Part shown: piece after piece, positions 2-15,047 of the stretch
How positions within the stretch are numbered: position 1 is the stretch's first letter
How the letters are laid out: each line of letters starts with the position of its first letter
Origin: Timonella senegalensis JC301
GTDB lineage: Bacteria > Actinomycetota > Actinomycetes > Actinomycetales > Cellulomonadaceae
DNA: 64,000 nucleotides
Direction of reading: 5' to 3'
Assembly: GCF_000312125.1 (NCBI RefSeq)
Contig: NZ_HE978644.1
Coordinates: 345,873 to 409,872, forward strand
Made by a program: the position numbers and the translations under genes
Notes under the pieces: model-generated
What the model saw: the letters and a program-made list of their open reading frames with translations, nothing else
The model's database searches: none
What the model was told of the DNA's origin: nothing

Positions 2-475
2 CAGATCGGCTTTGATCGGCTCTACGAGTACTGCGGTGATGACACGGTCATCCTGTTCCGAATGCACCACTTCATTCACGAGGAAATCCCGATTCCTGGG
101 CAGTACAGGGACAAGTTCCTCAATTTCACGCACTTTGCTGACGGACTGAACCTGCTGCACGTCACTGACATTATGATCACTGACTACTCATCAATCATTT
201 ATGAGTTCTCGATGCTAGACCGCCCAATGCTCTTCTTCTCATATGACCGTGAAGTATACGAGGCTACCCGCGGCTTCCACAGGAACTACATCGAATCGGC
301 CCCAGGCAAGGTCTGCGACACTTTTGATGACCTGATGACCGCACTCGAAACTCACGACTATGAGATTGAACGCGTCGAAAAGTTCCGCAAGGAGAACTTT
401 GACAACATCGACCGTGGGTCAAGTGACAGGTTCATTGACTGGATCCTCCTCAAGCACCTAAAGCCACTCAACTAG
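2..475 (+). CDS. CDP-glycerol:poly(glycerophosphate) glycerophosphotransferase family, C-terminal part
   Basis: The gene enters from the left edge; 157 residues of its C-terminus are present, so no start can be chosen. The reading frame stays open to base 2. The segment has the hallmark of the TagB/TagF superfamily: a GT-B-like C-terminal lobe with ITDYSSIIYEFSMLDRP at about residues 59-75 of the visible part, where the DYSS motif binds the CDP-polyol phosphate. Such enzymes transfer glycerol- or ribitol-phosphate units to a lipid-linked wall polymer at the inner face of the membrane. The neighbours support a surface polymer locus. Whether the substrate is CDP-glycerol or CDP-ribitol cannot be read from this fragment. 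Confidence 0.85.
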   Translation, partial: QIGFDRLYEYCGDDTVILFRMHHFIHEEIPIPGQYRDKFLNFTHFADGLNLLHVTDIMITDYSSIIYEFSMLDRPMLFFSYDREVYEATRGFHRNYIESAPGKVCDTFDDLMTALETHDYEIERVEKFRKENFDNIDRGSSDRFIDWILLKHLKPLN

Positions 476-683: not shown

Positions 684-2249
684 GTGACCGCTTACAACAT
701 CCTGCTTTTGACCAACCGTGACTCTGACAACGTCGGTGATCAGCTTATTGAAGCCACCGTCATGTCATTGATTTCGGCTGCTATGGCGAATATTGGTGTC
801 CGACCACGTGACTTCAAGATCAACTCCCGGGCCGCGGGGATCATTTCGAAGAAGTACATGAGCACTGGCGACGAGGCTCTGCTGGCAGATGCTCGCGATG
901 CGATCCTTAAAGCTGACCTCATCATCTTTGGTGGCGCACCACTGTTCAACTACTCGTACCAGAACTTTTATCTCCGGACGATCCGCACGTTGGAACTCGC
1001 TCAGGAGTACGGCGTTCCCGTGATCTTCTCGAGCATTGGAGTTGAACCGTATTCCGACTCGAATCCAAAGAGTCAACGCCTCAAGCAGGCGTTGCACCTT
1101 CCAGTTGTCCGCCAGATTACAACGCGCGATGACATCGAAGCGGTCGAGCAGTACCTTGCCGGTACCCGGGTCCCACGATCTCTCGTCTCGGACCCTGCAG
1201 TCTTCACCGAGCAAGTGTTCGACGGTGTCGTGTCTGCTCGTAAAGAGAAGACCAACGGCGGTGGAAAGAAGACGATTGGCCTCGTGGTAACGAGGGCCGG
1301 GATCTTTGCGGACAACGGAATTGATTTTCCTGAGGCAAAGCAGCGTGAGTTCTGGCTCGATGTGATCGCGGAGCTCGAAGCCCGTGGAGATGACTACAGG
1401 TTGTTCACTACCGGTCACTTCACTGACGAAGTCTTCCTAGATTCACTTGTACGCGATCATGGAATCCCTACGAAGAAAGTCAAGTTTGCGGTTAACTCTC
1501 CAGAGGAGATGCTGAAGCAGTTGAATGACTGCGACGGCGTTATTGCATATCGCCTGCATGCAAGCATTGCTGCCTTCTCCTACAAGATTCCGGCTATCGG
1601 ACTTTCTTGGAACTTTAAGGTGCCATACTTCTACGAAACTATGGGTTACGGTCAGCGCGCGCTCCCCGCCGAAAAGTGGAACGCAGCAACAGTGCTCGCT
1701 GCCCTCGACATCGCGATGGAAGAGGGAGTTGTCCACAATGATGAGTTCACCTTCTCTGTGTACGAAACCCTGTTCAATGGAATAAAGAGCGTGTTTGCGC
1801 CGCGGTCCAAGGCAAAGGTCTACACGATTGAGCAGCTCCGCGCGGAGATTCCGCGCTACCAGGGCACTACATATGCTCAATACACCGAAAAGATGCACCG
1901 AAAGTTGCGTCGCACCTACGAGTCGTACCAAAAGATTGCTCGTAAGGCGGCGGCACAGCCAGCACCCGCTGTGAAGAAGGATGCGAGCGCTAGCTCGGTG
2001 AAGCCACAAGCCAGTGAAGGCGCCGTGGCTAACGCTGTTACGGGAGCCCCCAAGGACGCGACTTCTGCATTGGATGTGAGGCTAGCGTCGGTTGAAAAGA
2101 GGCTTGTCGCAGCGGAACTACGAAACGCTTCGCTCGAAAAGCGCCAGGCATCGTTTGAACTGCGCCAAGAAGACACGGACAGGGCCATCAGGAAGTTGAA
2201 GAACATCCTGCCGATCCGGTTGTGGCACAAACTGCGTGGACACAAGTAA
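684..2249 (+). CDS. Polysaccharide pyruvyl transferase family protein with coiled-coil tail
   Basis: 521 residues. The N-terminus (residues 5-25, with NVGDQLIEA) and the body match the polysaccharide pyruvyl transferase (CsaB/WcaK) fold, which moves pyruvate from phosphoenolpyruvate onto a sugar of a surface glycan. A conserved YRLHASIAAFSYKIPAIGLSW segment near residues 290-310 is the usual C-lobe signature. After residue about 430 comes an Ala/Pro-rich linker, then a heptad-like coiled coil and the tail LPIRLWHKLRGHK. A related tail closes the next two genes, so it looks like a shared targeting or docking module. The start is GTG with a weak ribosome site; no earlier start fits. The substrate is unknown. 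Confidence 0.8.
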   Translation: MTAYNILLLTNRDSDNVGDQLIEATVMSLISAAMANIGVRPRDFKINSRAAGIISKKYMSTGDEALLADARDAILKADLIIFGGAPLFNYSYQNFYLRTIRTLELAQEYGVPVIFSSIGVEPYSDSNPKSQRLKQALHLPVVRQITTRDDIEAVEQYLAGTRVPRSLVSDPAVFTEQVFDGVVSARKEKTNGGGKKTIGLVVTRAGIFADNGIDFPEAKQREFWLDVIAELEARGDDYRLFTTGHFTDEVFLDSLVRDHGIPTKKVKFAVNSPEEMLKQLNDCDGVIAYRLHASIAAFSYKIPAIGLSWNFKVPYFYETMGYGQRALPAEKWNAATVLAALDIAMEEGVVHNDEFTFSVYETLFNGIKSVFAPRSKAKVYTIEQLRAEIPRYQGTTYAQYTEKMHRKLRRTYESYQKIARKAAAQPAPAVKKDASASSVKPQASEGAVANAVTGAPKDATSALDVRLASVEKRLVAAELRNASLEKRQASFELRQEDTDRAIRKLKNILPIRLWHKLRGHK

Positions 2250-2297: not shown

Positions 2298-3149
2298 TTG
2301 GAGACAATAAGCACCCTTCAGGAATATTCAGATGAGCGTGGCAACACGATTGAAGTTCATGGAGAAATATCGGACTTTCCCGTAAAAATTCAATTTCGAG
2401 GATCCAACAATCGTTTGATTGTTCAAGATACTTCGATGCTTCGTCGTCTGCACGTTTTCTTCCTCGGAGACAACAGCGTGGCAACGGTCGGAAAATTCAC
2501 TCGCAATACCAACGCGAGTTGGACATTCACGTTGGGATACGATTCGGAAATTCGAATTGGAACGAACGTGAGCACCGCGAGCACATGTTCTGTGTTCGCT
2601 GCTGAGGGCGCGCAGGTGCGAATCGGAAATGACTGTATGATTGCTGCGGATTGTCGGATTCGAGCCGACGATGCGCACCCCATCTACGATATTGAGTCCG
2701 GTGCGAGGCTCAACCCCTCCCAGAACATTGTCCTGCGTGAACACGTGTGGCTCGCATATGGCGTCATGGTCATGCCCGGCGTAACGATTGGCCAAGGGAC
2801 CGTAGTGGGGACATTGTCTGTTGTTACGAAGAGCCTGCCAAACAACGTTGTCGCAGTTGGGACCCCTGCTCGGGTAGTCCGACAGAACGTTGCGTGGGAG
2901 AGGACCGACATCAAGAAGACCAGGATTGAGCTCGACGAAGACGGCTTACCGCCTCGTCGGGAGAAGTACTGGAATCCGACCGTGGACAAGAATGGCCGTG
3001 CCGCCAAGTACGCTCGTAGCTCCAACTCGGCGCTAGACCGCCGAGTTGGCGAGCTTGAGCAAGATCTCGACCGTGCGTTGCGTGCGTTGGGGAAGTTGGA
3101 ATCGCTGTGGCCGATTCGAGCGTGGGTTCGCTTGCGCAAGCGTTCCTGA
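2298..3149 (+). CDS. Left-handed beta-helix (hexapeptide) O-acyltransferase with C-terminal tail
   Basis: 283 residues, TTG start 10 bases after AGGAG. Residues about 90-200 carry hexapeptide repeats (VRIGNDCMIAADC, VMVMPGVTIGQGTVVG) and a DDAHPIYD loop that supplies the catalytic His of the CatB/WbbJ-type xenobiotic and sugar acetyltransferases. The likely role is acetylation of a sugar or polyol in the surface polymer. The N-terminal 90 residues are also beta-rich. The last 45 residues form a short coiled coil ending LWPIRAWVRLRKRS, close to the tails of the genes on both sides. Acetyl-CoA is the likely donor by family; the acceptor is unknown. Confidence 0.82.
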   Translation: METISTLQEYSDERGNTIEVHGEISDFPVKIQFRGSNNRLIVQDTSMLRRLHVFFLGDNSVATVGKFTRNTNASWTFTLGYDSEIRIGTNVSTASTCSVFAAEGAQVRIGNDCMIAADCRIRADDAHPIYDIESGARLNPSQNIVLREHVWLAYGVMVMPGVTIGQGTVVGTLSVVTKSLPNNVVAVGTPARVVRQNVAWERTDIKKTRIELDEDGLPPRREKYWNPTVDKNGRAAKYARSSNSALDRRVGELEQDLDRALRALGKLESLWPIRAWVRLRKRS

Positions 3150-3324: not shown

Positions 3325-4575
3325 ATGGTTTCGATAACCCATATCAGCATCAACAAGGATGTCGATGAGACCGTCGTCTCTGCTCTAATCAAGTTGCCGG
3401 GGTTCGAGGACCGCGCGTGGTTTCGAATTCCAGCAGGTCAGTTCCCGGATCACGAGGCAGCAGCCGACGCATTCTTCGTGCTTGGTTTGGTACTGGCTAT
3501 GGGGACCGACGGCCGTCTCAGCATGGACGTCCGGGTCTCCAAACGCTTGATCTACAACGCGGACGCAATTCAGAGCATTATCGTAGGTTGGTACCCCAAA
3601 CGGGTACGCAGAATCGATCACGTTGACGTCGCGGCACGGGACGTAGACAAACCCCTCATCCAAGGTAAGAAGATCTCGTGCTTCACGGGTGGAGTCGATT
3701 CCTTCGATACTTTGGTCCGCAACAGACACGACATTGATGCACTTCTCTACGTGCATGGATACGATGTGCCTTTGCACCGAACTGAGATTCGTGAAGCGAC
3801 CTCGAAGCACCTGAAAGAGGTTGCCCAAGAAACGGGGATCGAGCTCCTTGAAGTATCTACGAATATTCGCGTTTTCCTCAACAGGGCCGCGACGTGGTCT
3901 GTCATTGCCCACGGGCCGGCGCTGGCTGCAGTAGGCCATTTGCTTTCAACTCGATTTGGAACGCTTGTCATTCCAGCGTCGCACACATTCGCTGATAAGT
4001 ACGCGTGGGGCTCGCACCCCTTGCTTGACCATTTGTGGTCGAGTTATCGCTTGTCGGTCGTTCACGATGGAGCTGGATCAACACGTGTGCAAAAGACCCG
4101 CAGACTGGCGCAGGAGCCAACTGCTCGTGATCACCTGCGTGTTTGTTGGCAAAACACAGGAAAATACAACTGTGGAAGGTGCTCCAAGTGCGTGCGCACC
4201 ATGATTGCGTTGGAACTCGCTGGTGTGCTTGCTGATTTCAAGACGTTTGATTCGCACATCAATCTTGACGATGTCCGCGAGCTCAAACTAACCAACATGA
4301 GCGGTCGCTCGTTTGTGAAGGAGAACCTTGACTTTGCGACGGAGCAAGGGCACCTGGAGATCAAAGAAGTTCTTCAGGCGGTCATCGATGAGTTCGATCA
4401 AAGCCGAGGTGCGGTTGCGCCACAGAATGTGGCCAACGGAGGGGCATCGGTCGCAACTGAGCAGTCTCAACTACGAGCGGTCGAAAAGCGCATCGCCGGA
4501 CTCGAACGCAAGGTAGACAAACTAGAGCGCCTATGGCCAGTTCGAGCGTGGCGAAAACTCAGAGGGCGCAGTTAG
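3325..4575 (+). CDS. QueC-like PP-loop ATPase in a surface-polymer locus
   Basis: 416 residues from ATG 3325; an in-frame TTG at 3256 would add 23 residues with no clear family content. The PP-loop FTGGVDSF is at residues 120-127. A cluster C274-x8-C283-x2-C286-x2-C289 matches the zinc site of QueC, which makes 7-cyano-7-deazaguanine by ATP-dependent amidation and dehydration of a carboxylate. No QueD, QueE or QueF gene is nearby, and the protein has an extra N-terminal domain of about 110 residues and a coiled coil ending LWPVRAWRKLRGRS. I infer an ATP-dependent amide- or nitrile-forming step on a polymer precursor or protein. The true substrate is unknown. Confidence 0.65.
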   Translation: MVSITHISINKDVDETVVSALIKLPGFEDRAWFRIPAGQFPDHEAAADAFFVLGLVLAMGTDGRLSMDVRVSKRLIYNADAIQSIIVGWYPKRVRRIDHVDVAARDVDKPLIQGKKISCFTGGVDSFDTLVRNRHDIDALLYVHGYDVPLHRTEIREATSKHLKEVAQETGIELLEVSTNIRVFLNRAATWSVIAHGPALAAVGHLLSTRFGTLVIPASHTFADKYAWGSHPLLDHLWSSYRLSVVHDGAGSTRVQKTRRLAQEPTARDHLRVCWQNTGKYNCGRCSKCVRTMIALELAGVLADFKTFDSHINLDDVRELKLTNMSGRSFVKENLDFATEQGHLEIKEVLQAVIDEFDQSRGAVAPQNVANGGASVATEQSQLRAVEKRIAGLERKVDKLERLWPVRAWRKLRGRS

Positions 4576-4746: not shown

Positions 4747-4810
4747 ACACTTGGGGTTGGTTTCTTGTTCACTTCAACCTGATATGTCCGCCTCAAATCG
4801 AAGGAAAGTC

Positions 4811-5503
4811 ATGCAAGTTGTTATTCTCGCTGCTGGTCTTGGTACTCGACTTGGCAACCCCTTCCCAAAGGCACTGACGCCTTTAGTTGATGGTCGCACG
4901 ATCATGGGGCAGCAACTCGAGAACATTCACTCGCGTCACAAAGATGCCCAAGTCTACATCGTGGTCGGGTTCAAGCTCGACATGATCCTTGAGGCGTTCC
5001 CGCACAATCTCTTTGTGTACAACGAGATGTTTGACTCGACGAACACGTCGAAGTCGCTGTTGAGGGCGCTTCGTTCGTCAGGTCCTGGAGGCGTGCTCTG
5101 GCTCAACGGTGACGTTGTGTTTGACCCACGTGTGCTCGACCGTGTCCAGGAATTCATCGAAAGTGACCAGTCGTTCGTCTGCGTGAACACAGCTTCAGTT
5201 GGTGACGAAGAGGTCAAGTACACGACGAACGAGGCCGGGCACATCAACGCTCTTTCCAAGCAGGTCACCGGAGCTTTTGGCGAAGCGGTGGGCATCAACT
5301 TTGTTGCGGGTAAGGACAAGGAAGCGCTCATCACTCGCCTCGCAGAGGTGGAGGATCAAGACTACTTTGAGCGTGGTATCGAAGTGTCAATCGAGAAGGA
5401 CGGGCTAGTCGTCGTTCCCGTCGATATTTCAGATCTCTATGCGGTTGAAGTGGATTTCGCAGAGGACTTGGCTGCCGCCAACAGCAAACTCTTTGTCGGA
5501 TAG
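4811..5503 (+). CDS. Sugar/choline-phosphate nucleotidyltransferase (LicC-like)
   Basis: 230 residues. The protein starts directly at the nucleotide-binding signature VILAAGLGTRLG, with AAGGAAAG just before ATG 4811; an in-frame GTG-type start 60 bases earlier adds residues unlike the family. The order G-x-G-T-R-L, PKALTPL, and a later NGDVVFDP with its metal-binding Asp identifies the NTP_transferase family. The NEMFDSTNTSKSL segment resembles LicC, the CTP:phosphocholine cytidylyltransferase, rather than glucose-1-phosphate enzymes. It probably activates a small phospho-alcohol or sugar phosphate for polymer decoration or synthesis. The substrate is an inference. Confidence 0.75.
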   Translation: MQVVILAAGLGTRLGNPFPKALTPLVDGRTIMGQQLENIHSRHKDAQVYIVVGFKLDMILEAFPHNLFVYNEMFDSTNTSKSLLRALRSSGPGGVLWLNGDVVFDPRVLDRVQEFIESDQSFVCVNTASVGDEEVKYTTNEAGHINALSKQVTGAFGEAVGINFVAGKDKEALITRLAEVEDQDYFERGIEVSIEKDGLVVVPVDISDLYAVEVDFAEDLAAANSKLFVG

Positions 5504-5571
5504 TACTTTGGGCTAGAGCCTCCTTTGGAGAACGCGAAGCTCTGCCCCTCAAGTCGTAAGGATGCGTGAGA

Positions 5572-7497
5572 ATGATTCAGTCCGAGAACTTGTTGGACGA
5601 CCTGCTCTTGTCAGAGGGGCTCTCGACCTCTGAAGAGATTGAGGACTTCTGGCGAAAATCAGTCGGCGATAACCTTGCAGTCACGCGACTCTTTGACCGG
5701 TACTCTCAAAACGTTCCGGTTAATCCGCGGGTAATCTTCTACGAAGCTATGGCGGGTTCTCGAATGGGAGATAACCCGTACGCGATCTTTGAGTATCTTC
5801 GTAGTCACCCGGAGTACGGCGAGTTCGTACACGTCTGGTCCTTTGACAAGCACAGCACCATTCCGGAGAAGTACCGTGGGCTAAAGGACGTCGCATTCGC
5901 TGCCAAGGGAAGCGCGGCCTTTTCCTATTTTCTTGCGACCGCTGGTTACGTTGTGTGCAACGCCAACCTTCCGGGGTTTTACGCACCGCGCCCTGAGCAG
6001 AAGTACTTGAACACCTGGCACGGGATTCCGTACAAGAAGCTTGGGCGCGACTCGCCCAAGGCTAGATGGGGAGCTCCACGTAGCACCGCGAGCTTCTTGA
6101 AAGCAACGCACGTCATTACGACCTGCGAGTTCATGACTCAATCTGTCATTTCCGCGTACTCAATGGCTGGAACCTCGAACGCCATCATCGCTGAAACCGG
6201 CTACCCGCGAGTAGACATCACTGTGAACAAGGATGCCGACCGGATGCAGGAAATCCGGGAAACGGTGGGGCTTGCGGTGGCTGGTGCGGAAGCAGCCAAG
6301 CCAGTGGTGCTTTACGCCCCTACGTGGCGGGCAGAGGAAGGTGAAGATGTCGTCGACACAGATCAACTCGTCTCAGACTTGCGCGCGCTAGCTGCGCTCG
6401 ACATCGTGGTTCTGTATCGAGGCCACCACCGGATGGACCGTATCATTCAGGACCAGACGGTTGGCGATGAACTGAGTGGGGTACTTATCCCGTCACATGA
6501 CATCAGTTCTAACGAACTGTTGACAGTCGTCGACGTGCTCATCACAGACTACTCGAGTATCTTCTTTGACTTCTTGCCAACGGGCCGTCCGATCGTTCAG
6601 TATCTTTACGACTTCGATGAGTATGCAAGGACTAGGGGGCTGAACCTCACGATTGACGAGTTGCCCGGCTCGGTCGCCTTCACACGAGAAGACTTTGTTT
6701 CGGCTGTTGAAGAGGCTGCATCCCTCGTGCGTAACGCGGGTCCTGACTCTGACTGGAGCTCGAACCCACTGCAGGGGAGCAAGTACGCGATTGCTCAGCA
6801 GCGGTTCTGCTCGCATGAAGACGGCCATGCCTCGAAGAGGGCAGCGGACTTTCTGTTTGGGCGGACAGCACAGGAAGTTCCTGTGCGGGTCACTCGTGAT
6901 GCGCGCCCGACAATTGTCTTTTGGGGTGGATGCCCCGGTGAAGAGACCCCCGCAGACGAGTTCTTCCACGAAGTGATCGCGTCGGGGAAGCATAAAGCTA
7001 CCCAGACCACAATGCTGAGTGACCGCAGTGCCCACATGCCACGGGGCGCTGTAAAAGCAATCAAGGCGTTGCGTGGCGGGGTATCGACCATCGCGTACAC
7101 GCCGGTTTCTCCTGCACTCCAGCCATCGGAGACCGAAGCCTACGCACAGTTTGTTGCGTGTGAGGACTTGGCTCCGGAACAAGTGATCGCGATGGTCCGA
7201 GCGGATGCAGATCTGCACCGGATCTTTGAGCGCGAGTACCGACGCAGGCTTGGCAGGAACTACTTCGATACAGTCGTTCTGGATAGTGGCCTCTCGAACT
7301 ACGAGGTCGCTCTCGCATCGATGGCGGGGAAGTGTATCCCGCTGTCTGAGTTCACCAGGGCTAGGATTGCTCGTGAACCCAGATTCCGTCGATCCGCTGC
7401 GTTCAAGTGGGGTGCACCGCGAGTTCGACGCATTGCACGAAAACTTGCCCGTGCGCTGCCCGCGGGCATGCAGGACGTGCTCCGCGGCAGGAGATAG
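5572..7497 (+). CDS. CDP-polyol phosphate transferase (TagB/TagF family), full length
   Basis: 641 residues from ATG 5572, which lies 9 bases after AAGGA; GTG 5566 is possible but too close to that site. The catalytic region starts near residue 55. It has the family motifs NTWHGIPYKKLGRD (with the HG pair), VLYAPTWR and ITDYSSIFFDFLPTGRPIV. About 200 residues follow the transferase domain. They include a Rossmann-like stretch with no clear family, then a basic tail. It likely polymerises or primes a poly(polyol phosphate) chain on undecaprenyl-linked glycan at the membrane. The divergent-facing operon makes CDP-ribitol, so ribitol phosphate is the favoured unit, but this is inference. Confidence 0.88.
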   Translation: MIQSENLLDDLLLSEGLSTSEEIEDFWRKSVGDNLAVTRLFDRYSQNVPVNPRVIFYEAMAGSRMGDNPYAIFEYLRSHPEYGEFVHVWSFDKHSTIPEKYRGLKDVAFAAKGSAAFSYFLATAGYVVCNANLPGFYAPRPEQKYLNTWHGIPYKKLGRDSPKARWGAPRSTASFLKATHVITTCEFMTQSVISAYSMAGTSNAIIAETGYPRVDITVNKDADRMQEIRETVGLAVAGAEAAKPVVLYAPTWRAEEGEDVVDTDQLVSDLRALAALDIVVLYRGHHRMDRIIQDQTVGDELSGVLIPSHDISSNELLTVVDVLITDYSSIFFDFLPTGRPIVQYLYDFDEYARTRGLNLTIDELPGSVAFTREDFVSAVEEAASLVRNAGPDSDWSSNPLQGSKYAIAQQRFCSHEDGHASKRAADFLFGRTAQEVPVRVTRDARPTIVFWGGCPGEETPADEFFHEVIASGKHKATQTTMLSDRSAHMPRGAVKAIKALRGGVSTIAYTPVSPALQPSETEAYAQFVACEDLAPEQVIAMVRADADLHRIFEREYRRRLGRNYFDTVVLDSGLSNYEVALASMAGKCIPLSEFTRARIAREPRFRRSAAFKWGAPRVRRIARKLARALPAGMQDVLRGRR

Positions 7498-7578: not shown

Positions 7579-8643
7579 CTAGCCGTTGTACAGGGCGATG
7601 GTTTCACGCATGCCGTCTAGGACCGAGTATTTGGCTTCCCAGCCGAGCTCGCGTAGACGAGTGCATTCAGGAACTAAGCCGCCCCGGTTCGAGCTCCACA
7701 TAGCTTGACCATCAGGAATATCGAAAACGAGGTTTCCTGGCTCTTGACCTGCAGCCTCGAGCGTAAACTCTGCCAGTTGGCGGATGGAAATCATGTTTTG
7801 CTCAGCGGCAATGTTGTAGGTTCCGAGAACTTCAGTGTTTGGACGAGCCATGATCGTTAGCAGTGCGCTGGCAACATCGAGGCTATAGGTGTAGGTACGA
7901 CGCATGGACCCGTCAGACTGCAGCACAATCTCTTGACCCGCGGCGGCCTTGCGAATGAACTGGTTTTGCACACGATCATCGGTAGCTGCGAACCCTGGGC
8001 CAAATGTGTGAGAGATTCGAGCGATGCTGGCTCGTCCACCATTCATACCTGTGTGGATCGCGCAGAGGTTTTCTGCCAGTCGCTTGGTTTCCGGGTAGAT
8101 GGACCGCGGATTGAGGTTGTCGATCTTGCCTTGCATCTCCTCAGTTACGTGCAGGTCGGTTCCCTCGTCCTCGAGCGGGATATTCCCGTAGATCTCAAGG
8201 GTAGAGGCCATAACGAAGTGAGCATTCGCTGCTGAAGCAACCTCGAGAAGCTTGTTTGTTTGATTGACGTTTGCCTCTAGGACATCCATTATGTGGAGGT
8301 TGAAGTCATGTGGAGTCGCTGGGCTGGCCATATGTACGATGTGCGAGAACGATGTGCCTTGAACGACCAGTGGCTCGACATCATCAAAACTGATGAAGTG
8401 AATGGCTTTGGTTCTCAGGTCTTTGAAGGTCGCCTGCGCGCGTTCCTTGTTGCGCACAACCAAGTAGATTGCGCCTCCGCTGGCGGAGGTCAGCGCGTCA
8501 AGCGCCCACACGAAAGCCTGACCAACCAGACCCGTCCCCCCTGTGACGAGTACCGAGGTGCCCGAATCGAACTGCTCCCGGAGGGAGTCGGGGAGCGAAT
8601 CTACGTGAGCTTGTGCGTAGTCGCGGAAGTTACTCAATTTCAT
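7579..8643 (-). CDS. NAD-dependent epimerase/dehydratase (extended SDR)
   Basis: 354 residues from ATG 8643; it overlaps the 3' end of the upstream cytidylyltransferase gene by 14 bases, which suggests coupled translation. The glycine motif GGTGLVG near residue 34 binds NAD(P), MASTLEIYG holds the active-site Ser/Thr region, and YPETK gives the catalytic Tyr-x3-Lys. The family includes UDP-glucose 4-epimerase, UDP-glucuronate decarboxylase and dTDP-glucose dehydratase. It is the last gene of the bcs1-like operon and probably makes a nucleotide sugar for the wall polymer. The exact sugar is not evident. Confidence 0.83.
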   Translation of the reverse strand: MKLSNFRDYAQAHVDSLPDSLREQFDSGTSVLVTGGTGLVGQAFVWALDALTSASGGAIYLVVRNKERAQATFKDLRTKAIHFISFDDVEPLVVQGTSFSHIVHMASPATPHDFNLHIMDVLEANVNQTNKLLEVASAANAHFVMASTLEIYGNIPLEDEGTDLHVTEEMQGKIDNLNPRSIYPETKRLAENLCAIHTGMNGGRASIARISHTFGPGFAATDDRVQNQFIRKAAAGQEIVLQSDGSMRRTYTYSLDVASALLTIMARPNTEVLGTYNIAAEQNMISIRQLAEFTLEAAGQEPGNLVFDIPDGQAMWSSNRGGLVPECTRLRELGWEAKYSVLDGMRETIALYNG

Positions 8644-9385
8644 TGCGGTAGTTCCCGTTTGGGTGCTTCGAGACAAGGTACTCGAACTGTTGGATGTCAT
8701 TCTTTACTGTCAGCTTGATGTTGCCACGGATGCCAGCCACCAGGTGCAGGTCGTGTCCGTATGTGCGCGCCATGTGGGCGTGGTCGATAAATGTGCCCAT
8801 TTCGCCTCGCTCAATGGACTGGCGGTGCAGTGCGAGTGCGGTATCCAGATTGAAGCACTGGGGGGCTTGCAGCACATACATTAGGTTACGGTCTGGAACA
8901 TCGGCGACCATCTTGCCGTCCGGAGTGGTGATAGCTACGGTTTCGAACGCAGGGATAGATGTAATTGCGTTTCCGTGCTCGACCACGCCAGCTAGGCAGC
9001 GCTCGATCAGAGCGTCTGGGATGACTGGGCGAACTCCATCGGAGATCAAAGCGATCGTCTCACCGGTGTTTACACCAGCGGCCTCCGCAGCGACGAGCGC
9101 GCGGTAGGCAGACTCTTGGGCGCTCGCGCCACCTTCAGTGACCGTCTTGACCTTGGTATATCCGTATTGCTCAACGAGGTCCTCAGTGGCTTCGATCCAG
9201 TCCGGGTGGGTAGCCAAGTAGATCTCGTCGATGTGGGGATTCTGTTCAAAGCAGTCAAGGGTGTATGCAAGGATCTCCTTGCCGTTGACCTTGATGAACT
9301 GCTTGGGAATCTTGTCTGCGCGGCGCATCCTGCTCCCGACACCCCCGGCAAAGAGGGCGACGATTACGTGCTTTCCGGAAAACAT
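8630..9385 (-). CDS. IspD/TarI-type cytidylyltransferase
   Basis: 251 residues from ATG 9385, which has AGGAG five bases upstream; an in-frame extension to 9445 lacks family content. The N-terminal FAGGVGSRM and KIPKQF motifs are the CTP-binding signature shared by IspD (2-C-methyl-D-erythritol 4-phosphate) and TarI (ribitol 5-phosphate) enzymes. VTEGGASAQES and a C-terminal KNDIQQFE follow the family. It lies between a CDP-ribitol synthase-like fusion and an epimerase, so a polymer role is favoured over isoprenoid synthesis. That leaves two cytidylyltransferase domains in one operon, so this one may act on a different polyol phosphate. Confidence 0.78.
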   Translation of the reverse strand: MFSGKHVIVALFAGGVGSRMRRADKIPKQFIKVNGKEILAYTLDCFEQNPHIDEIYLATHPDWIEATEDLVEQYGYTKVKTVTEGGASAQESAYRALVAAEAAGVNTGETIALISDGVRPVIPDALIERCLAGVVEHGNAITSIPAFETVAITTPDGKMVADVPDRNLMYVLQAPQCFNLDTALALHRQSIERGEMGTFIDHAHMARTYGHDLHLVAGIRGNIKLTVKNDIQQFEYLVSKHPNGNYRNEIE

Positions 9386-9484
9386 GGGTCTCCTGAGAAT
9401 CGGGAAATTAAAGCCTATTGGTTCACTGATGTCTAAGTGCGACAAGGGAGCAAGACAAAGTGACTTGCTCGTGCACGGTTGTTA

Positions 9485-10867
9485 CTAGTATGTACGGTCA
9501 GGGTTGTTCTTGACGTCGATGACGGCGCCAGTCAGATCGGAGGCAAGGACCTCTAGTGAGGTCTCGGCTACTTGCTCCGCGGAGAGCAGAGTTCCGGGTG
9601 GTTCCTCACCGAAGGCTTTGCTACGCATTGGTGTCGCGGTGCGTTCTGGGTTGATGACATTGACCTTGATGTCGTGCGCGGACCATTCCTCAGAAAGCGC
9701 CTGGGTAAGGTTCACGACAGCGGCCTTTGTGGACGAGTAAAGCGAGTAGTTCTCTCGGCCACGGGTATAGCTTGACGAGGTGAAGAACAGTAGGTGACCC
9801 TTTGACTCTCGAAGGTAAGGGTATGCGGCTTTTGCAACGTTGATCGGAGCGAGGTAGTTCACTTCGATGGTTTCCATGACCTCGTCGTGGCTGGTCTCGC
9901 TCAAGCGGTTCATACGGAGCACACCGGCAGTCAGAACAATAGCGTCAATCGATCCAAATTCCTGGGCCGTCTTGCTCAGGGCCATGCCGATTGATTCGGC
10001 GTCCTGAACATGTAGTCCCGTGGTCGATCGGCCATGCGATGCAACGTTTGCTCCCGCGGCAGTGGCAAGCCTGCAAATCTCGGCGCCGATCCCGTATGAA
10101 CCACCCAGCACGACTATTGTCTTACCGGTCAGGTCGGGTGCGGATTCTGAAGCGCCGTCGTCGTCCGAGAGAGAGACGGACGCTAGTTGGAAGAGCTTGT
10201 CAGCAATGTAAAGATCAACCGGATGGGTAACCTTGATGTTGTGCTCTGCGCCCTCCACGGTCTTGATTGGGACGTGTGGAAGGTACTTAAGCACAACTCC
10301 GCAGTCATCTGTTGCGGCGAAGCCAGGATCTGATTCCGCAAGCGCGTACGCCTCGCGGAGGACAGAGAGCTTAAAGGCCTGAGGGGTTTGCCCCCTGCGC
10401 AGGGTGGCTCGGTTGGGGATCGAACGGATTATTCCATCGTCATCGACCTCGACGATAGTGTCAGATGAAGGAATGACAACGTCGACCGCAGCGTAGGTTT
10501 CGAGTGCATCGACGCATGACTTGATGATCCGGTCCTCGAGGAGAGGACGGACGGCGTCGTGCAGGACGACATTGAGGTCATCCGGTCCGAGCGAGTCCAG
10601 AACGCGGCGAGTGGTTTCGTTCCTAGTTGCCCCACCCTCAAGGATCTTGGTGAGTTTGGAGAACTTGTTTCCCAGAAGGGTGTCCACGTGCTCTGACCAA
10701 CCCGGCGTGATCATCACGACGACCTCGTCAATGTATGAGCTATTTTCGAAGATTGAGACAGTGTGTTCGAGGATGGTCTTGCCGGCAACCTTTACCATTT
10801 GCTTTGGCACGCTCAGGCCCAACCGGGCACCGACGCCCCCAGCGAGAATGACACCTACGGTTCGCAA
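9485..10867 (-). CDS. Bifunctional cytidylyltransferase / short-chain reductase fusion (Bcs1-like CDP-ribitol synthase)
   Basis: 460 residues, TTG start fixed by a stop codon immediately upstream. Residues 1-230 are an IspD/TarI-type cytidylyltransferase (ILAGGVGARLGLSVPKQM, EGGATRNETT, HDAVRP). Residues about 247-460 are an SDR domain with VVLGGSYGIG and the catalytic pair Y377-x3-K381. This order matches Haemophilus influenzae Bcs1/Acs1, which reduces ribulose 5-phosphate with NADPH and then makes CDP-ribitol. It argues that the wall polymer of this organism contains ribitol phosphate. It is the first gene of a three-gene reverse operon with a good promoter. Confidence 0.82.
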   Translation of the reverse strand: MRTVGVILAGGVGARLGLSVPKQMVKVAGKTILEHTVSIFENSSYIDEVVVMITPGWSEHVDTLLGNKFSKLTKILEGGATRNETTRRVLDSLGPDDLNVVLHDAVRPLLEDRIIKSCVDALETYAAVDVVIPSSDTIVEVDDDGIIRSIPNRATLRRGQTPQAFKLSVLREAYALAESDPGFAATDDCGVVLKYLPHVPIKTVEGAEHNIKVTHPVDLYIADKLFQLASVSLSDDDGASESAPDLTGKTIVVLGGSYGIGAEICRLATAAGANVASHGRSTTGLHVQDAESIGMALSKTAQEFGSIDAIVLTAGVLRMNRLSETSHDEVMETIEVNYLAPINVAKAAYPYLRESKGHLLFFTSSSYTRGRENYSLYSSTKAAVVNLTQALSEEWSAHDIKVNVINPERTATPMRSKAFGEEPPGTLLSAEQVAETSLEVLASDLTGAVIDVKNNPDRTY

Positions 10868-11124: not shown

Positions 11125-13740
11125 CTATCCGTTAAGGGTTATGGAGTTGATCCAAGTACCCGGAATCGAACTCGAAGAACTCGACGAGGAGATCTTGCTG
11201 TTCTTCCCCTTGAGAATTGTTCGCCAGCCCATTACTGAACTGGTTCCAGAATCGCTACGTGTGACACTCTGGGTGGCTCCGCTAGCGGACTTGGCACGCA
11301 GCGTCTTGATCTGCCCGGACTCGTAACGGCTGATGATCTCAACCGATTCGATGTCGCTCAACGAGGAGAATGTCTTGCGTAGTTGGGCCTCGCTGACAAC
11401 GTGCGTCCACGTGCCCGGAACTCCAGGTGCCTTTGCCGAGTATGGGTCAGCGACACTCTGCTCATAACTCAATACCCCTCCGGGGGTCACCCCGTTGGTC
11501 CACACGTCCTGAGAGTTGGCAGTGCGGCCACCGGAGTACGAGTAGTAGTGAGCGGACTTGACCACGGCGGAGCCGTTGTACAGGACCTGAGCCGATGTGT
11601 TGCTGCTCTTCGTTGCATTGACCGCGTTGACCCAGTACTCGCCATATGCGCCGTTCTCCTTGGTCCAGCCGCTGAAGTACTGGTCGGTGGTGGTGTCCAC
11701 GACGTTGCAGTTGCATGAGGTCGACTTGGTGGTGCCCTTGCCGATCACGTAGGAGCGCGCGGCGATGGCCTGTGCCTGAAGGGCAGCGTTGCCGGAAACA
11801 CCCCACGATGAAGGCATCTCCCCGAGACCGTACAGGTACTCTGTGTTGAGCCGCAGGTCATTGACTACGTTGATTTTGCCGCCCACAACGGTAACCGTGA
11901 TTCGGCCGTGGCGGTACTTGCCCTGTGCGCCCGTCAGCGAAAGCACAGCGTCCGTTCCAGACGGGTCGTAGTAGGTGGTTCCACTCCAGTGCATGCGAAT
12001 GGTGGAATCCGTTGCCGTAGTGATGGTGGTTCCAGCCGAGTTCTTCACTGTGGCCTTAACCAGCCCATTGCTTACGGTAAACGTGACCTTGTTTCCCGCT
12101 GCCAGACCATCAGTCTTGGCGATGGTCGCGCCCGCCGAGTTACGTAGCCGGAACTTTCCAGCAGAAATGCCGGCTGTGGTGCCGCTTGAGGTTGAAGCAC
12201 CAGTGAGCTTGACCGAGACCACCTCCGGGGTAGTTGTCGTCTTCACGGTTGTGCCGGTGTAGTAGTAACTCAGAATCTTGGACGCGGAGTTGCCCTCACG
12301 TGCCATTTGGTATGCACCGTACTGCGGCATTCCCACACCGTGTCCAAAGCCCGAGCCTGTGAAAGTGAAACTACGCGTTGCGGGGATGACGGGTGGCGGC
12401 GTGGTCGACAGGTAGGCAGTGGTCACCCATCCGGTCTTTCCAGATGGGGCCTTGATGTTTACCCAGGTGAGGCCCCCGACTTCCTTCTTCACGCTAGAGA
12501 TCGTGGTGACCTTGGTGCCATACGGCAGCTTCTCGACCACGGCATACGTGGTGCCCGCATCACTGCGCATGTTGAGCGCGGAGTCCTCGGACGTCACGTA
12601 GTAGGTAACAGGTGTGAACGTGCCGATCGGGTTAGTAGTGGAGAGGTAGCTATTGGCTACCCAACCGGTTTTACCCGAAGGTGCCTTGATGTTTACCCAG
12701 GTGAGGCCCCCGACTTCCTTTTTCACGCTAGAGATCGTGGTGACCTTGGTGCCGTGTGGCAGCTTCTCGACCACGGCATACGCGGTGCCCGCACCGCTGC
12801 GCATGTTGAGGGCGGAGCTTGCTGAGTCAACGTAGAAGGTCTGGGGAGTGAAGACGTTGACTGGGTTGGTCTTGGTCAGGTACTTGTTCACTACCCACCC
12901 GGTCTTTCCAGATGGCGCCTTGATGTTTACCCAGGTGTAACCGCCAGAGGACTTTGTTGTGGCGGAAACTGTGGTGACCTTGGTGCCGTGTGGCAGCTTC
13001 TCCACCACGGCATACGTGGTGCCCGCACCGCTACGCATGTTGAGCGGGGTGCTTGCCGAGTCTACGTAGTACGTGACAGGGGTGAACGACGGAGTTGAGG
13101 CTTGGATGCTCACCTTGACGGTGGGACTGACCTTGCCTGAGGAGGTGTGGCGCCAGCGCCACTCGCGCGTGTTCTTGGGCTTAACTGTGGCTGAAGCAGC
13201 ACCGCTCTTGAGAGTCTTGGTTGTGTAGTTCTTCCACTTAGTCCCTGACTTGTACTGGAGCGCAACGCTTCCAGTCTTAGCTACTCCGGCGGAGAAGTAA
13301 CTGGTCTTGAACGTGACGGAACTGCCCGGCTTGATTACCTTGCTCGACACCGTGTTGGTGAAGCCCGACTTCAGCTTCACACTGATGGAGGGGCTTTTGA
13401 CCTTCATGTCTGTTGTGGCGAATCGGTAGACGCGATTCTTTGGTGGCCATACCGTGCTCTTGGTCGTTCCCGTGGAACTGATCGACACAGTTCGAGCTGT
13501 AGACCACTTGGTCCCATTCTTGTACTGGAGATAGAGCTTTCCAGACTTCTGCAGCTTCCCCGACTTGTAGTACTTGGTTGTGAGGGTGGAGGACTGGCCT
13601 TTGAGTACGGTTGTCTTGGATGCGCTTATAGAAACGGAGGTTGTGCCGGCTGCTTGTGCTTGCTCAGGCGCGCCAATTACTACCCCCACCGCGACCAGAG
13701 CAGATGCAAGAAAAACCGTCAATAGTTTCATGTATCGCAT
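11125..13740 (-). CDS. Secreted SpoIID/LytB-domain protein with SH3 repeats
   Basis: 871 residues. A signal peptide runs from residue 1 to about 30, ending AQA. Residues 31-220 hold two or three beta-rich, Lys/Ser-rich repeats with LQYKSGTKW motifs. Residues about 220-445 are three SH3 domains (LNMRSGAGT, WVNIKAPSGKTGWV), almost identical in DNA and protein. A SpoIID/LytB domain follows from about 450 (GFGHGVGMPQYGA, LGEMPSSWG, ALQAQAIAARSYV). The family binds or cleaves denuded glycan strands or activates amidases during cell-wall remodelling; here it is exported and probably wall-bound. This is not evidence of sporulation. It may begin at M4. Confidence 0.85.
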   Translation of the reverse strand: MRYMKLLTVFLASALVAVGVVIGAPEQAQAAGTTSVSISASKTTVLKGQSSTLTTKYYKSGKLQKSGKLYLQYKNGTKWSTARTVSISSTGTTKSTVWPPKNRVYRFATTDMKVKSPSISVKLKSGFTNTVSSKVIKPGSSVTFKTSYFSAGVAKTGSVALQYKSGTKWKNYTTKTLKSGAASATVKPKNTREWRWRHTSSGKVSPTVKVSIQASTPSFTPVTYYVDSASTPLNMRSGAGTTYAVVEKLPHGTKVTTVSATTKSSGGYTWVNIKAPSGKTGWVVNKYLTKTNPVNVFTPQTFYVDSASSALNMRSGAGTAYAVVEKLPHGTKVTTISSVKKEVGGLTWVNIKAPSGKTGWVANSYLSTTNPIGTFTPVTYYVTSEDSALNMRSDAGTTYAVVEKLPYGTKVTTISSVKKEVGGLTWVNIKAPSGKTGWVTTAYLSTTPPPVIPATRSFTFTGSGFGHGVGMPQYGAYQMAREGNSASKILSYYYTGTTVKTTTTPEVVSVKLTGASTSSGTTAGISAGKFRLRNSAGATIAKTDGLAAGNKVTFTVSNGLVKATVKNSAGTTITTATDSTIRMHWSGTTYYDPSGTDAVLSLTGAQGKYRHGRITVTVVGGKINVVNDLRLNTEYLYGLGEMPSSWGVSGNAALQAQAIAARSYVIGKGTTKSTSCNCNVVDTTTDQYFSGWTKENGAYGEYWVNAVNATKSSNTSAQVLYNGSAVVKSAHYYSYSGGRTANSQDVWTNGVTPGGVLSYEQSVADPYSAKAPGVPGTWTHVVSEAQLRKTFSSLSDIESVEIISRYESGQIKTLRAKSASGATQSVTRSDSGTSSVMGWRTILKGKNSKISSSSSSSSIPGTWINSITLNG
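12400..13085 (-). repeat. Three tandem near-identical SH3-coding repeats
   Basis: Blocks at about 12405-12605, 12645-12850 and 12880-13083 each encode one SH3 domain and share long identical DNA stretches, for example around 12450-12560 and 12690-12790. Such similarity points to recent duplication or gene conversion, so copy number may vary between strains. Confidence 0.75.
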
Positions 13741-14771: not shown

Positions 14772-14883
14772 CCCGCGGTCCTTCGGTCCCGCGGTCCTTC
14801 GGTCCCGCGGTCCTTCGGTCCCGCGGTCCTTCGGTCCCGCGGTCCTTCGGTCCCGCGGTCCTTCGGTCCCGCGGTCCTCCGGT
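14772..14883. repeat. 16-bp minisatellite, seven units
   Basis: The unit CCCGCGGTCCTTCGGT is repeated six times perfectly from 14772 to 14867, then once with a T-to-C change (14868-14883). A degenerate eighth copy follows. It lies between the divergent RDD and SpoIIM genes. Sixteen is not a multiple of three, so each gain or loss of a unit would change the frame of anything read through it. Confidence 0.95.
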
Positions 14884-15047
14884 CCCGCTATCCCATGAAC
14901 CCGCGGTCTTTACCACGATCGATACCAACGAGTCCTGATCGCGAAACGCGCTCGCGACCCAGACCGCGAGCAGTTCCCGCAGTGCAAGTATGCATTCCCT
15001 TTGCCGTGTCTTGCCCCAAGCGTAGCGCGATGTGGGAAGGTAGGTGA

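Follow-up and report, generated by a model that had tools for sequence, protein, structure and literature searches.

Gene content of the locus

The window, by which we mean the whole analyzed stretch of 64,000 nucleotides from contig NZ_HE978644.1 of Timonella senegalensis JC301, contains a gene for a QueC-like PP-loop protein that is surrounded by genes for the synthesis and decoration of a surface polymer (Table 1). Directly upstream of the window lie genes for an ABC-2 permease, an ABC ATPase and another PF04464 protein. Based on the functions of the families present, this gene set appears to fit a polyol-phosphate-type teichoic acid and its exporter. The initial annotation had described the neighbors as enzymes that pyruvylate, acylate and polymerize a glycan, and this description holds for the PF04230 pyruvyltransferase, the hexapeptide acyltransferase and the PF04464 glycerophosphotransferase. 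Pyruvate ketals are known on the teichoic acids of the actinobacteria Nocardiopsis and Brevibacterium (PMC6801904). The window pyruvyltransferase retains the RLH motif of the PEP site of CsaB and Pvg1, which matches R306/H308 of CsaB (H308 examined by mutagenesis, R306 positioned by docking). The lysine in the following ‘NFKV’ may equal CsaB K328 in a match made by eye.

Several further features were recorded in this region. The TarI-TarJ-like fusion at 9485-10867 adjoins the second TarI-like gene at 8630-9445, and the upstream phosphotransferase gene (L105:17886-19388) contains a stretch of N, so that the beginning of the operon was read only in part. A 234-bp repeat at 12425-13087 (2.8 copies, 80% match) lies inside an 871-aa ORF on the minus strand (11125-13740) and gives near-identical protein repeats, which are SH3-like by reading. 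A 16-bp tandem repeat at 14772-14888 (7.3 copies, 99% match) is located within the 5' end of a minus-strand ORF of 335 aa; it translates as DRRTAGPKDRGTEGPR repeats, which may form a variable leader or reflect a misplaced start codon.

Table 1 Features of the QueC-like gene and its surroundings in the analyzed window of T. senegalensis.
Feature	Position	Strand	Remarks
PF04464 phosphotransferase (second), C-terminal end	62..475	+	gene start lies upstream of the window
PF04230 polysaccharide pyruvyltransferase, CsaB type	684..2249	+	E 4e-19; shared tail at C terminus
Hexapeptide-repeat acyltransferase, WbbJ/WcaF type	2298..3149	+	with shared tail
QueC-like PP-loop protein, 416 aa	3325..4575	+	domains from AlphaFold model
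PP-loop FTGGVDSF, residues 120-127	3682..3705	+	homologue alignment
Loop WGSHPLLD, residues 228-235, where QueC has its YPDC substrate loop	4006..4029	+	register by eye
Zinc-type cluster C-x8-C-x2-C-x2-C (C274, C283, C286, C289)	4144..4191	+	
C-terminal coiled coil and tail of the QueC-like protein, KLERLWPVRAWRKLRGRS	4462..4572	+	
MobA-like nucleotidyltransferase	4751..5503	+	
PF04464 CDP-polyol phosphotransferase, TarF/TagF type	5566..7497	+	
NAD-dependent epimerase/dehydratase	7579..8700	-	
IspD/TarI-type cytidylyltransferase	8630..9445	-	best NCBIfam name D-ribitol-5-phosphate cytidylyltransferase, below cut-off
IspD/TarI-type domain fused to short-chain dehydrogenase, TarI-TarJ-like	9485..10867	-	

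A C-terminal tail shared by three enzymes

Three consecutive and otherwise unrelated enzymes (encoded at 684-2249, 2298-3149 and 3325-4575) end in a common tail (at 2136-2246, 3036-3146 and 4462-4572, respectively), in which a coiled coil precedes the sequence (L/I)(W/L)P(I/V)R(A/L)W-x2-LR (‘LWPVRAW’). The pairwise tail scores exceeded those of all 2000 shuffles, and a tail profile matched exactly three places in the genome (E 3e-17 to 4e-16; next 0.45). When applied to Brevibacterium and Brachybacterium, this profile matched the QueC-like gene only. The simplest reading of these sequences is that the tail may be a docking or membrane-targeting element, and hence a candidate docking tag, which gathers the three decorating enzymes.

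Reading frame, conserved motifs and predicted fold

The QueC-like gene occurs as a single copy in the T. senegalensis genome. From the ATG at 3325 to the stop codon ending at 4575 it encodes 416 amino acids. Its longest frame starts at TTG 3256, but the ATG is the better start because two family-level homologues begin there, with ‘MV-I’ at an ATG. Across 57 homologues, the F, GG and D of the PP-loop and all four cysteines of the zinc-type cluster are invariant. The pattern [ST]GGxDS is present in 55 of the 57 relatives, nearly all of which have Thr in place of Ser. The exact x8 spacing of the cysteines, found in 19/57, is less common than x9 and thus is not the norm of the family.

An AlphaFold2 model built with 57 sequences reached a mean pLDDT of 91.8 and a pTM of 0.86. 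Its domain layout comprises an N-terminal domain (residues 1-112), a QueC-fold core (113-300), a helical extension (301-361), and a coiled coil with an amphipathic tail (376-416). An N-terminal domain of ~110 residues had already been proposed, and the modeled domain has about this size. Together, the confidently predicted fold and the conservation among the 57 homologues show that the ORF with the PP-loop and the C-x8-C-x2-C-x2-C cluster, as first read from the DNA, is real and far beyond chance.

The top structural match of the model was QatC (Z 15.5, 289 residues, 16% identity), followed by QueC (12.9, over 177 residues, and 12.8), Cap9 (11.6) and LarE (10.5), and PP-loop structures from outside the QueC family had Z scores of 10.5 or less. 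As the alignment with QatC starts from residue 1 of the full model and extends over residues 1-353, the predicted likeness extends past the core. On its own, the N-terminal domain showed a weak RNase-H-like topology (best Z 5.5, too low for assigning a fold) in a comparison with chains that did not include QatC and that thus speaks neither for nor against a QatC-like N-terminal domain. The structure comparison with QueC that had been suggested for this protein hence led to QueC-family proteins and not to another PP-loop family. The predicted PP-loop core together with the C-terminal Cys cluster places the protein in the QueC-fold ATP pyrophosphatase superfamily.

In scans against Pfam and NCBIfam the protein had no match above the cut-off. 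The sole hint was PF19932 (DUF6395), which matched close to where the Cys region begins, with an E value of 6e-4, below the cut-off; a weak match to this family near the start of the zinc region was seen in seven of ten members scanned. PF19932 is uncharacterised, with no paper found in our literature search, and may be a neighboring branch of the same superfamily. In PHROGs, the window protein weakly matched a ‘QueC-like’ family.

Comparison with known QueC-fold systems

QueC (PF06508, TIGR00364) shares with the window protein the PP-loop, the C-x8-C-x2-C-x2-C motif and the aligned core. However, the window protein is nearly twice as long, has no queD/queE partners, and lacks the substrate motifs YxQxHxxE, VPxRN and YPDC, which are hallmarks of QueC besides the PP-loop and the zinc motif (PMC13329287) and were each found in 0/57 relatives. 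The initial naming as QueC-like therefore stands insofar as the protein is a QueC-fold PP-loop enzyme; its nearest known relative is QatC, and none of its homologues has the substrate motifs of QueC.

QatC, from the anti-phage system qatABCD, likewise has an N-terminal extension before the QueC core, has lost YPDC and carries ‘(S/T)HP’ in the substrate loop. With a register set by eye, the ‘SHP’ in WGSHPLLD resembles the QatC ‘THP’, and the window protein also shows the QatC architecture of a QueC core extended at both termini and a length of about 400 aa or more. In contrast, the QatC zinc motif C-x19-CGxC-x2-RR is absent (CGxC-x2-RR in 0/57 relatives), and the window protein falls far below the cut-off of the QatC model NF041925, to which its own genome has no match. 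No qatA, qatB or qatD was seen in the window. The partner here is a pyruvyltransferase, and in place of a qatB-type adjacent gene with the N terminus MGTS there are glycan enzymes, none of which starts with Met-Gly.

Cap9 of type IV CBASS has the QueC-fold core in common with the window protein, but it is a minimal core with a retained Y.DC substrate site and with a CD-NTase as its partner (PMC13329287). Instead of a ~185-residue core with Y.DC beside a CD-NTase, we found 416 aa, Y.DC in 0/57 relatives and no adjacent CD-NTase. The N-acetyl-sugar amidotransferases WbpG and PseA are also PP-loop enzymes in surface-glycan loci (PMC13329287), but by description their Cys motif and order differ from those of the window protein (PMC13329287), which had no such NCBIfam match.

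A 2026 survey of PF06508 covers QueC, QatC, Cap9, LarE, WbpG-type proteins, GMP synthase and a PfkB-linked group, and describes no pyruvyltransferase-linked group (PMC13329287). Since the window protein lies below the PF06508 profile (no match at E 0.1 or better), such proteins would largely escape that survey. Our literature search returned nothing relevant that joins QueC or the PP-loop with pyruvyltransferase or exopolysaccharide. We conclude that the window protein represents a new branch, as yet without a name, within the QueC/QatC fold, and thus a known fold in a new setting.

No indication of a role in queuosine synthesis, defence or phages

The absence of any further queuosine gene nearby, as pointed out initially, was confirmed and extends to the whole T. 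senegalensis genome, in which neither QueC (sole PF06508 match a GMP synthase; TIGR00364 without match) nor QueD/PTPS was found. PTPS was absent from 16 and present in 15 of the 31 other carrier genomes, which were reached through the loci, and wherever contigs could be matched the PTPS gene was located on a different contig from the QueC-like gene. Homologues beside queD/queE, which would have spoken against the earlier interpretation, are thus not the pattern observed. The motif loss and the missing QueC and QueD make 7-carboxy-7-deazaguanine unlikely as a general substrate, with uptake from outside being possible. A displaced queuosine or preQ0 enzyme would account for the PP-loop and the zinc-type cluster, but given a genome with neither QueC nor QueD and three QueC motifs missing from all 57 relatives, we consider the probability of this explanation negligible and reject it. 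These results agree with the previous placement of this QueC-fold enzyme outside tRNA modification.

A defence-system role was rejected as well, based on the lack of a PADLOC match for the window protein and on the glycan neighbors. Phage cargo was also rejected, as no match occurred in phage records or in viral contigs, the latter being only a weak negative because the patterns used there were weak; BFVD contained remote QueC-like phage proteins only.

Distribution and architecture of the family

A single-sequence scan of genome contigs retrieved no relatives, and a profile search of genome contigs from a three-sequence alignment yielded 60 loci from Actinomycetota, Pseudomonadota, Verrucomicrobiota, Planctomycetota, Acidobacteriota, Gemmatimonadota, Campylobacterota and others. 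Relatives on plasmids, detected by tblastn in Azospirillum, Gloeothece, Gemmobacter, Priestia, Pseudobutyrivibrio and haloarchaea, were all annotated as hypothetical. The family is patchily distributed, with carriers in 3 of 200 genomes of the window's own taxonomic family. Tandem copies and double-domain QueC-like proteins are common: double-domain proteins of about 830-855 aa or triple tandems occur in L024, L036, L046, L047 (Verrucomicrobiota), L062 and L064, which suggests obligate pairs of the QueC-like domain.

In Pseudomonas and relatives (L033, L038, L042, L043 and L051), the QueC-like gene lies in an operon that resembles an LPS core operon and contains Kdo/WaaP kinases, GT2, PF04230 and a carbamoyltransferase, with a Mur-ligase-like gene in two cases; L033, L038 and L051 each harbor two diverged QueC-like copies. 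In Brachybacterium halotolerans (L016:9854-11401), the QueC-like gene is broken into three ORFs and is whole in related species, indicating either recent decay or sequence errors.

Association with PF04230 pyruvyltransferases

Across 62 loci, the density of PF04230 near the QueC-like gene was 1.87 per 10 kb in the first kb, 0.38 in the second kb and 0.05 at 2-6 kb. No comparable peak was observed in the same loci for GT2 and GT4 (0.1-0.6) or epimerases (0.0-0.4). The local PF04230 profile had been seeded partly with adjacent genes, which may bias the densities, and neighboring ORFs were called mechanically, so that some listed ones are spurious; a whole-genome scan with the curated Pfam profile agreed with this result. 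It detected PF04230 in 26 of 31 carrier genomes, and coordinate matching placed a copy close beside the QueC-like gene in 14/31, compared to ~0.08 expected under random placement; the Poisson value for this comparison treats related genomes as independent and is indicative only. The sole PF04230 copy of the genome adjoins the QueC-like gene in six genomes (L024, L026, L033, L038, L051 and L057).

Directly adjoining PF04230 genes were found in Azospirillum, where no other glycosyltransferases are close, as well as in Gloeothece, Priestia and many others. In a Planctomycetia MAG, one frame (L053:1-1653, open at the contig start) joins the QueC-like domain with a C-terminal part that matches PF04230 at E 1.6e-13. 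The association spans more than ten phyla, and the phylogenetic tree shows PF04230 linkage scattered over many distinct clades, with 15 changes among 65 scored rows. In this tree, the window gene and its counterparts from Brevibacterium and Brachybacterium form one group (support 99), all members of which are PF04230-linked, and the trio of pyruvyltransferase, acetyltransferase and QueC-like genes is repeated in Brachybacterium. The RLH motif is kept in most PF04230 partners; those from the Pseudomonas loci are divergent, lack RLH and may not be pyruvyltransferases. In about 60% of the sampled loci, for example in Sulfuricurvum and Demequina, no PF04230 was detected nearby, which implies that the enzyme has other targets or that its partner sits elsewhere.

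The adjacency, the fusion and the genomes with a single PF04230 copy argue for a direct functional link between the QueC-like enzyme and PF04230. A survey of the gene neighborhoods of homologues had been proposed along with the initial annotation, which had missed the tight and widespread pairing that this survey brought to light and that is our strongest clue.

Proposed function and alternatives

Taken together, the QueC-like enzyme probably acts on surface glycans in an ATP-driven finishing step and not in queuosine synthesis. In the reactions of QueC and Cap9, ATP serves to activate a carboxylate, which then reacts with ammonia or an amine (PMC13329287; PMC13279940). The pyruvate ketal formed by PF04230 enzymes retains such a carboxylate in free form, and both points are most simply reconciled if the QueC-like enzyme amidates or conjugates this group. 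In the sequence of events that we infer for T. senegalensis, the pyruvyltransferase would place a pyruvate ketal on a unit of the teichoic-acid-type polymer, leaving a free carboxylate; the QueC-like enzyme would hold Mg-ATP at FTGGVDS and activate the carboxylate, most likely that of its partner's ketal, as an adenylate; and attack by ammonia or a small amine would give an amide, AMP and pyrophosphate, by which the negative charge would be removed or capped. The shared C-terminal tail may hold the pyruvyltransferase, the acetyltransferase and the QueC-like enzyme together. Mur-ligase-like and asparagine-synthase-like genes, which represent other ATP-dependent amide-forming families, recur in some loci; this fits amide chemistry without proving it. 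Nothing in our data specifically favors a nitrile, the other product that had been considered, and a report of an amidated pyruvate ketal was not found in our literature search. We assign this reading a probability of about 0.42, because many loci lack PF04230, because the reaction of QatC is not settled (PMC13279940), and because the product is deduced. The carboxylate is also not certain as the target, because PP-loop enzymes activate amide or carbonyl oxygens as well.

Among the alternatives, the enzyme could use the same chemistry to amidate or aminoacylate a carboxylate elsewhere in the polymer, for instance that of a uronic acid or N-acyl acid, with the pyruvyltransferase being a co-inherited decoration gene. 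The many loci without PF04230 and the sugar-acid-type genes in haloarchaeal and other loci are in line with this explanation, but a direct link is favored by the close spacing of the genes, by the fusion and by the genomes with a single PF04230 copy, and we regard this alternative as rather unlikely. Slightly less plausible still is that the QueC-like enzyme acts before PF04230 and makes or activates a donor or acceptor that PF04230 would then transfer or use, in which case some PF04230 proteins would not depend on PEP. The Pseudomonas partners, which are divergent and lack RLH, and the variable gene order are in line with this, whereas the PF04230 protein of the window and most partners keep RLH. 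The occurrence of the PP-loop enzyme WbpG in a surface-glycan locus (PMC13329287) also brings to mind the formation of an amidine or the insertion of sulphur on a sugar, as by WbpG/PseA or LarE-type sulfur transferases. This is improbable, as the Cys motif and order are unlike those described for WbpG (PMC13329287), and LarE aligns less well (Z 10.5) and has no C-terminal zinc cluster (PMC13329287). With QatC as the closest structure, one may finally think of a modified N terminus of a partner protein, as produced by Cap9 and probably QatC. However, the adjacent window genes encode proteins starting with MTAY (from a GTG start) and METI and lack the Met-Gly start used by Cap9 and QatC partners, which makes a protein substrate less likely; furthermore, the partner in L053 is fused in and there is no 7-deazaguanine pathway, so that we consider this highly improbable.

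Amidation of a pyruvate ketal is hence the reading that we prefer for T. senegalensis. Even more tentatively, PF04230 and a QueC/QatC-fold ligase could form a two-enzyme module across bacterial phyla, which would attach pyruvate to a surface sugar or polyol and then convert its carboxylate to an amide or amine conjugate. Such a module would carry out a glycan modification not described so far, and would add a third role of the QueC fold to those in base synthesis and immunity.

Implications

The known uses of the QueC fold are the synthesis of a nucleobase and the attachment of a nucleobase to immune proteins. If our interpretation is correct, a widespread branch with links to pyruvyltransferases would demonstrate that this fold also acts on cell-surface glycans, and many proteins that are currently annotated as ‘hypothetical’ would gain a function. 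Teichoic acids, capsules and LPS cores would then carry some pyruvate groups that are chemically capped. Such caps could go unnoticed when lost during polymer extraction, and they would alter both the charge of the surface and the way in which pyruvylated polymers are recognized.
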